From: Methylomarinum vadi
GTDB taxonomy: Bacteria > Pseudomonadota > Gammaproteobacteria > Methylococcales > Methylomonadaceae
DNA: 64,000 nucleotides
Assembly (NCBI RefSeq): GCF_000733935.1
Contig: NZ_JPON01000001.1
Location: 806,001-870,000, forward strand
Direction: 5' to 3'
The notes under the pieces are model-generated. The model searched no databases. It was given only the letters and a program-made list of their open reading frames with translations, and had not been told where the DNA came from. Below are positions 7,178 through 41,786 of the stretch, piece by piece (the stretch's first letter is position 1; every line of letters begins with the position of its first letter). A program made the translations under genes and the position numbers.

Positions 7178-7320
7178 TGATAGTTTCTCCTAATGTTTTG
7201 CCGAAAATATTCCGGCATTGGGTTACGCCTCCACCTGCCCCGCCTGGAAACCCGTAGACTCGAAAACGAGACATGAGCACCCTACCAGCCGTGCCGACAG
7301 ATGTGAGTATTAAAATTAAT
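7178..7320 (-). promoter_or_regulatory. Structured 5' leader of rpsB, candidate S2 autoregulatory region
   Basis: About 140 nt of non-coding leader upstream of rpsB. On the minus strand it carries a CTCG-TTTT-CGAG hairpin (near 7257-7272), a GC-rich GGCGGGGCAGGTGGAGGCGT stretch, and a GCCG/CGGC hairpin near 7201-7218 just before the Shine-Dalgarno. In E. coli S2 represses its own operon through a conserved rpsB leader; assignment here is by position and by the folded GC-rich block, not by a covariance search. Confidence 0.5.
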
Positions 7321-7325
7321 TTACC

Positions 7326-37334: not shown

Positions 37335-37642
37335 GCCCAGGTGGCGAAATTGGTAGACGCAAGGGACTTAAGCGAAAATGAGCACCTAGCCGGGAAACCG
37401 CTAGTGTGAATCCGCTCAAATTCAGGGAAACCTTAACACGTAATGGTGATGGCAATCCTGAGCCAAGCCTGATTTATTTCAGGAAGGTGCAGAGACTTGA
37501 CGGGCGGGACCTCAGCACATCATGGTGGTGGTCAAGAGAAAGTCCAGCGCACGAACAACCTCGGTTGGCAACGAAAGCTGTAGTGTGACGAAAATCCCTC
37601 GGTGGCAACACCGTGCCGGTTCGATTCCGGCCCTGGGCACCA
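37335..37642 (+). tRNA. tRNA-Leu(UAA) interrupted by a group I intron
   Basis: Exon 1 is 37335-37369 and exon 2 is 37591-37642. Joined they give an 87-nt leucine tRNA with acceptor stem GCCCAGG/CCTGGGC, a long variable arm (CGGTGGCAACACCG), T arm GCCGGTTCGATTCCGGC, encoded CCA, and anticodon loop CTTAAAA with anticodon UAA. The intron splits the anticodon between U34 and A35, the site used in cyanobacterial and plastid tRNA-Leu(UAA). Without splicing the gene cannot yield a functional tRNA. A TTGACA is present upstream at 37303 but without a well-placed -10. Confidence 0.95.
37370..37590 (+). ncRNA. Group I self-splicing intron (IC3-like) in tRNA-Leu(UAA)
   Basis: 221 nt, ORF-less. Conserved core elements are present in order: P-like TTCAGGGAAACCT, Q-like CCTGAGCCAAGCC, R-like GTGCAGAGACTTGACGGG and S-like AAGAGAAAGTCC, then GGCAACGAAAGCTG near P9. 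The upstream exon ends in U and the intron ends in G, as required for the two splicing steps. By memory the core closely resembles the Anabaena tRNA-Leu intron. The boundary is ambiguous by a few A residues but is fixed by the terminal G. Confidence 0.93.
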
Positions 37643-41400: not shown

Positions 41401-41786
41401 TGGTGGAGGCGGCGGGAATTGAACCCGCGTCCGCAAGCACTCCGCCACAAGGTCTACATGCTTATCCCGCGCTTTTGATTTAATCGTTGACTACCCGTCG
41501 GGCCAGGAAGATCAACGACGATTTCGATTAAATTTAGCGCTTCGGACTCCGAACAAAATCCTAACGCGATCTTATGTGAGATGACCCCTGAACGCCCTTC
41601 CCGAAGGAATTGCTCTACACGCATAAGCACATGTAGTCAGAGGAGTGGTGCTGTTTTTAAGCAGCTAAAGCCACTGAGTAGTTTTCGTCGTTTGCGAATA
41701 CTTTAAAGTCAGTAGGTTTTACGAGCTGTACTGTGCTCGGCATGCACTCGAGGTTTTGCTACCCACGTCGAAGCCAGGTCGCCCCC
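41401..41786 (-). ncRNA. ssrA: tmRNA (transfer-messenger RNA)
   Basis: 386 nt. The 5' end GGGGGCGACCTGGCTTCGACG and 3' end GGGTTCAATTCCCGCCGCCTCC plus encoded ACCA form the tRNA-like domain (GGGGGCG with CGCCTCC). The tag-coding frame at 41657-41695 begins at the resume codon GCA and reads ANDENYSVALAA then TAA, ending in the ALAA degron recognised by ClpXP. Pseudoknot stems are apparent in the remaining sequence. Function: rescue of stalled ribosomes with SmpB. Confidence 0.97.

Follow-up and report, generated by a model that had tools for sequence, protein, structure and literature searches.

An intron-split tRNA-Leu(UAA) gene in Methylomarinum vadi and its counterparts in bacteria and phages

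The tRNA-Leu(UAA) gene and its intron

The DNA analysed here, called the window, is a stretch of 64,000 nucleotides from Methylomarinum vadi (contig NZ_JPON01000001.1, positions 806,001 to 870,000). At window positions 37335–37642 (+), a tRNA-Leu(UAA) gene with an encoded CCA was read from the sequence, its anticodon loop, CUUAAAA, interrupted after U34 (Table 1). The original prediction, which had placed a group I intron here, was staked on a match to the covariance model RF00028. This model matched window positions 37359–37565 (+) from end to end (model positions 1–253) with 68.5 bits and an E value of 2.8e-15, the cut-off being 50 bits. The predicted coordinates, the length of 221 nt, the site after U34, the ORF-less state, the U before the 5ʹ splice site and the terminal G were right to the base. 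ARAGORN with default settings left the window tRNA-Leu(UAA) gene unreported; with introns allowed, it returned tRNA-Leu(taa) i(36,221) at the gene, and the spliced product of 87 nt folded as tRNA-Leu(taa) with a score of 122.2.

The ends read as those of a group I intron, with U37369 before the 5ʹ splice site, a paired G37380 in P1 and a terminal G37590, and the insertion lies between U34 and A35, the site of bacterial tRNA-Leu(UAA) introns. The longest open frame in the intron spans only 68 codons from stop to stop, and therefore no homing endonuclease is encoded; a mobile element inside the intron was ruled out as well, no sizeable ORF being present. A scan for promoters and terminators gave nothing better than shuffled sequences. 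The feature is thereby confirmed as a group I intron without an ORF, placed where cyanobacteria and plastids have theirs. We take IC3 to be the subgroup label for such tRNA introns. The title of a reference within PMC3984707 uses it for the pre-tRNA introns of Azoarcus and Synechococcus. Elsewhere in the window lie a tmRNA with the tag ANDENYSVALAA (41401–41786, −) and a match to t44 RNA (7222–7325, −).

Table 1. Exons, intron and helices of the split tRNA-Leu(UAA) gene, in window positions
Feature	Position	Strand	Evidence
5ʹ exon of tRNA-Leu(UAA), acceptor 5ʹ strand to U34	37335–37369	+	Sequence reading; spliced fold
Group I intron, 221 nt, ORF-less, terminal G at 37590	37370–37590	+	RF00028, 68.5 bits; boundaries from tRNA halves
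3ʹ exon of tRNA-Leu(UAA) with encoded CCA	37591–37642	+	Sequence reading; spliced fold
P1: exon CUU (37367–37369) with intron GAG (37380–37382), U34-G wobble at 5ʹ splice site, extended by A37370-U37379	37367–37382	+	Sequence reading; pair 14/23 of counted structure
P2 hairpin, GAAA loop	37386–37404	+	7/7 pairs with both-side changes; 87.2% of cells paired
P3 5ʹ strand, partner 37502–37508	37411–37417	+	Both-side changes in 5/6 drawn pairs; outermost pair weak
P4 5ʹ strand (P element region), partner 37456–37461	37422–37427	+	99.5% of cells paired
P5 hairpin	37431–37452	+	78.3% of cells paired
P4 3ʹ strand and P6 5ʹ strand (Q element region)	37456–37463	+	RF00028 match; pair counts
P6a hairpin	37468–37483	+	93.4% of cells paired; 5/5 pairs with both-side changes
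P7 5ʹ strand (R element), partner 37541–37544	37494–37497	+	100% of cells paired; 2/4 pairs with both-side changes
P3 3ʹ strand	37502–37508	+	Pair counts
P8 hairpin, proximal three pairs well supported	37509–37532	+	100% proximal, 51.5% distal
P7 3ʹ strand (S element)	37541–37544	+	Pair counts
P9 domain: long-range helix 37548–37552/37583–37587, P9 37556–37567, P9b 37569–37580	37548–37587	+	74.1%, 79.3% and 99.3% of cells paired

Helices P1–P9 were drawn on the window copy, and their pairs were counted over 34 introns of tRNA-Leu and tRNA-Arg (alignment A1, which holds 34 of 39 introns). Standard pairs filled 87.4% of 1839 cells, compared with 67.9% in shuffles and 30.5–43.5% when partners were slid by 1–3 columns, a control over which the structure is favoured, having been drawn from one of the 34 rows. 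Over these rows, changes on both sides were seen in 43 of the 56 drawn pairs, and the covariation score was 0.508 against 0.173, with none of 500 shuffles as high. The outermost drawn pair of P3 was unpaired in 28 of the 34 rows, and P9b of the window copy contains one A-C mismatch (A202-C209 in intron numbering). The RF00028 match and the pair counts with their controls together give the group I core, a P3–P9 fold including the P3/P7 pseudoknot. The P, Q, R and S elements had been called intact beforehand, with failure of the P3–P7 fold named as the outcome that would speak against them; P3–P7 does fold, with strong compensatory change over the 34 introns.

Single copy of the gene and a model of its splicing

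With a completeness rating of 100%, the host genome consists of a single contig of 4,335,162 bases; its gene for a particulate monooxygenase (PF02461, E 1.2e-128) fits a gammaproteobacterial methanotroph. RF00028 matched once in the whole genome, at the window intron. RF00005 gave 49 matches at E up to 10, 45 of them over the cut-off, among which ARAGORN read the intronless Leu tRNAs as CAA, UAG, CAG and GAG. No second tRNA-Leu(UAA) was found in this one-contig genome with RF00005, ARAGORN and RF00028, a search in which a second copy would escape the first two if its intron also escaped RF00028, as the introns of some real phage relatives do. The window gene as a pseudogene or second copy was ruled out, with no other UAA-Leu tRNA in the genome. 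The original prediction had made the need for splicing depend on this being the only UAA-Leu tRNA and had proposed a genome search for another; the supposition holds, all intronless Leu tRNAs having other anticodons. In 39 long, largely non-overlapping ORFs of the window, UUA accounts for 301 of the 1878 Leu codons. Because no other tRNA that was found reads UUA, we infer that the cell would depend on splicing of this transcript, which would make splicing essential.

We consider it highly probable that the cell's one tRNA-Leu(UAA) gene is interrupted by a group I intron that is intact, lacks an ORF and splices itself, that this intron belongs to a family of small tRNA introns of bacteria and phages, and that it was gained laterally or by transposition. 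Sequence, covarying structure and single copy are read from the data above, and the splicing chemistry is borrowed from group I introns generally. By that analogy, the exon end CUU would pair with the intron GAG to form P1 with the U-G at the splice site, and a guanosine bound in P7 would cut after U34. The freed U34 would then attack after the terminal G of the intron, and ligation of the exons would restore the anticodon UAA. Some lateral or transposition step would have brought the intron into tRNA-Leu(UAA).

Distribution of tRNA-Leu(UAA) introns in bacteria and phages

Both tRNA-Leu(UAA) exons were found around an intron in at least 13 of 369 sampled genomes of the class and at least 15 of 398 of the phylum, the M. 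vadi genome included; both counts are lower bounds that leave aside loci whose tRNA host the scripts returned as 'none'. RF00028 matched 56 of the 369 class genomes. In the phylum, the junction pattern occurred in 18 of the 398 genomes, and the reversed pattern in none among the matches listed; 15 of the 18 were counted, comprising 13 by script plus L277 and L270 (by eye, 4/5 stem pairs). G107 (L284), which has the core (117.6 bits), stands outside the phylum count, which takes in loci with both exons read, and G921 (L274) and G172 (L283) had the junction pattern and no core match. Class family f40 consists of L074, L080 and L082. Three loci missed by ARAGORN and taken up as divergent tRNA-Leu introns were rejected, L085 and L086 holding a 3ʹ half only and L088 ending at the contig end. 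In L085 and L086, from two relatives, the lone tRNA-Leu(UAA) 3ʹ halves (L085:1501–1552 and L086:1501–1552) follow unrelated DNA and the letters GGCTT or GTCTT, and resemble att remnants of integrated elements.

Closer to M. vadi, RF00028 matched 6 of 101 relatives and 10 of 301 genomes of the order. The intron host was tRNA-Leu(UAA) in two of the 301, M. vadi itself and G1035 (L290) of the same family. The other hosts in the order were Leu(CAA) (n = 2), Arg(CCU) (n = 1), Lys(CUU) (n = 2) and Ile(CAU) (n = 1); nine of the ten were assigned, L289 included, and L294 is the tenth. L289 (relative G1014) has two apparent group I introns in what is presumably 23S rRNA. The introns of relatives in other tRNAs (L002, L003, L005, L292 and L293) lie in Leu(CAA) after position 32 and in Lys(CUU). 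None of the five congeners gave an RF00028 match, and in two of them an intronless tRNA-Leu(UAA) was read intact (L096 and L102).

A core scan of named genome contigs placed 67 of the 118 matches listed in tRNA-Leu(UAA), with both exons of this tRNA flanking the core, and many of the proteobacterial matches listed in the same scan sit in tRNA-Ile(CAU). The hosts given here are later readings, which replaced first-pass ARAGORN assignments that were partly wrong (Ile(CAU) as Gln, Leu as Ser). Among 72,556 plasmid records, one partial match was found, in Priestia megaterium.

Proteobacterial introns in tRNA-Arg(CCU) and tRNA-Ile(CAU), which we take to be the Agrobacterium and Azoarcus types, resemble the window intron in being small and ORF-less with the same core, but they are inserted after U36, and in the tree those of Ile(CAU) lie far off as a set of their own. 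Vepritskiy et al. (2002) reportedly described a tRNA-Leu(UAA) intron at the same site in a gammaproteobacterium, a member of the same class. The title of MacGregor (2013) concerns genetic exchange of Beggiatoa with cyanobacteria. A passage of PMC4853749 describes putative group I introns, missed by standard annotation, in tRNA-Leu-TAA of Beggiatoa BOGUAY and Thiomargarita; the same tRNA is interrupted as in the window, a likeness by description. A passage of PMC4033280 gives such tRNA introns in cyanobacteria and in alpha- and betaproteobacteria. The site is the cyanobacterial/plastid one, as originally claimed; the rarity in proteobacteria that the claim implied is not supported by the class and phylum counts and the cases in that passage of PMC4853749. 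The window intron is not exceptional in its class and phylum.

A core scan of viral contigs gave at least 120 stretches, including two viral tRNA-Leu(UAA) genes with HNH-like ORFs in their inserts, of 776 nt (L308:536–1311, +) and 727 nt (L316:5348–6074, −). In a viral scan for the 3ʹ junction, tRNA-Leu(UAA) was interrupted at U34|A35 in 94 among the 120 matches listed, a 5ʹ half being accepted when the anticodon stem was complete, 6 or 7 of the 7 acceptor pairs formed and the D-loop motif was present. The 94 listed loci hold 77 distinct inserts; the insert measures up to 300 nt at 48 of the loci and at least 400 nt at 43. R1, a covariance model for which 29 cellular introns and no viral rows were used, found a core inside the insert at 83 of the 94 listed loci (49/54 and 34/40) and gave one match on 32 control loci, the genuine case L284. 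Among the matches listed, 26 of the 43 long inserts contain an ORF of at least 100 codons, 21 of these with an HNH-like string. Pfam HNH matches were weak, occurring in 4 of 5 tested inserts (L308 and three of the four others), with only one over the cut-off.

The cultured Agrobacterium phage Atu_ph07 (MF403008.1, L614) has tRNA-Leu(taa) at 1253–1614 with a 278-nt group I intron, near which its record lists hypothetical proteins only and no tRNA. The 735-kb uncultured phage LR756501 has tRNA-Leu(UAA) with a 205-nt intron. At E 0.01, RF00028 missed the introns of both phages and matched none of the inserts in 10 loci including L308, L613 and L614; at its cut-off, it matched the tRNA-Leu insert in 8 of 18 viral loci. 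The viral inserts it missed, L308, L613 and L614 among them, are recognised by R1. Phage tRNA-Leu(UAA) genes perhaps go unseen because RF00028 misses their introns. With the window intron as the query against phage records, 72 records were hit, none covering 80%, and 50 of them were Staphylococcus phages matching in the core only.

For most records the viral label is that of IMG/VR (a terminase model matched 5/30, and a T4-type capsid model 6/30, 4 over the cut-off), and the loci L505, L456 and L459, with a G+C of 0.62–0.65, look like bacterial DNA. Viral contigs L366, L303, L346 and L347 have other tRNAs interrupted by group I introns (Thr, Asp and Ile/Gln-like by ARAGORN), and L501:5822–6158 matched OLE RNA at 109.1 bits on a contig that also has a tmRNA and many tRNAs. 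A passage of the review PMC3984707 places all phage introns observed by 2014 in protein-coding genes, and those treated in a passage of PMC7886860 are in protein genes. A literature search on phage tRNA introns turned up nothing relevant among the papers listed, and PMC7162821 contains no word beginning 'intron'. The phage tRNA introns found here go beyond that 2014 passage of PMC3984707; later papers may already report such cases.

Origin of the window intron

Among 164 introns, the best BLASTN partners of the window intron included L247, a tRNA-Leu intron of the class, with 74.3% identity over 214 nt. The best identity was with L004, the tRNA-Arg(CCU) intron of G068 in the same order, which was 74.9% identical over 207 nt and agreed in 77–78% of tree columns. 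The first tree comprised 82 of the 164 introns with P1 left out, and in it L004 was nearest to the window intron by path. A viral tree took in L613, L614 and 46 of the 77 distinct viral inserts, in the rest of which no core start was recognised; a later one dropped 16 rows with long branches or of likely bacterial origin. Resting on 160–200 columns, the trees do not choose among three origins: a jump from Arg to Leu, an old intron of proteobacteria, or a source in phages.

Possibly, phage tRNA-Leu(UAA) introns bearing HNH genes homed into bacterial tRNA-Leu, and the window copy arose by later loss of the ORF. Consistent with this tentative account are the listed viral loci occupied at the same site, mostly with a core, the HNH-like ORFs of the long inserts, the introns of Atu_ph07 and the 735-kb phage, and two trees in which the HNH-bearing L308 is the row nearest to the window intron by path. 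However, L004 is nearer by identity, L308 and L316 join the window intron only in one weak group (82/92), and the AU test left standing a single clade of all phage rows (p 0.238). A reservoir of tRNA-Leu(UAA) introns in phages is plausible, with phages as candidate donors.

We are doubtful that the intron changed host, jumping by reverse splicing from a relative's tRNA-Arg(CCU), where it lies after U36, into tRNA-Leu(UAA) with a new P1. The identity with the L004 intron of the same order argues for such a jump, as does the AU rejection, in one tree, of a single clade of all Leu introns without Arg (p 0.035). In the larger tree, however, that test was not significant (p 0.13), joining the window intron and L004 as a pair lowered the likelihood relative to the free tree but did not lead to rejection (p 0.414 and 0.316), and later trees put the Arg(CCU) rows in a clade by themselves (98/88 and 98/90). 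Vertical descent of an old proteobacterial tRNA-Leu(UAA) intron, lost from most relatives, seems unlikely: introns sit at this site in 12 further genomes of the class and in G1035, a member of the same family, but within the order only the two genomes have one and none of the five congeners does, and pairing the window intron with L290 was marginally rejected (AU p 0.0438). Grouping it with the class Leu introns was neither supported nor rejected (p 0.537 and 0.145, two trees).

A recent lateral transfer from a cyanobacterium, the leading idea of the original prediction, is very improbable: cyanobacterial introns have the same tRNA, the U34|A35 site and the core in common with the window copy, with similar P4–P6 and R sequences, and a sister position to their clade was not rejected (AU p 0.378, 0.388 and 0.443, three trees), but all five trees set them apart as a clade (support 100/99 to 100/100) that excludes the window intron, which is about 70% identical and nowhere nested among them, and L247, L004 and several further proteobacterial introns all scored above the best cyanobacterial matches. 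Of the readings considered, the trees speak against one alone, a recent gain from a cyanobacterial lineage that is still living. Between the two origins offered at the outset, cyanobacterial-type transfer or ancient remnant, a recent transfer of this kind is not supported, and a deeper common root is compatible with the AU values.

The preferred reading, a laterally or transpositionally gained self-splicing intron in the only tRNA-Leu(UAA), would make the window gene another essential tRNA overlooked by standard annotation, its gene being split by a ribozyme. The intron adds to an already known kind, whose distribution is wider, and partly viral, than had been assumed. Its greater value is as a point of entry: introns occupy this tRNA-Leu(UAA) site across proteobacteria and in numerous phage sequences, some of which carry HNH-like ORFs, and how the intron spread can therefore be tested, phages being a candidate vehicle. 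We speculate, with considerable reserve, that bacteria and phages share one pool of tRNA-Leu(UAA) introns, in which HNH-bearing phage copies would be the mobile forms and ORF-less copies, perhaps including the cyanobacterial/plastid ancestor, their settled descendants. If true, such a shared pool would explain the patchy distribution so far ascribed to cyanobacterial transfer.
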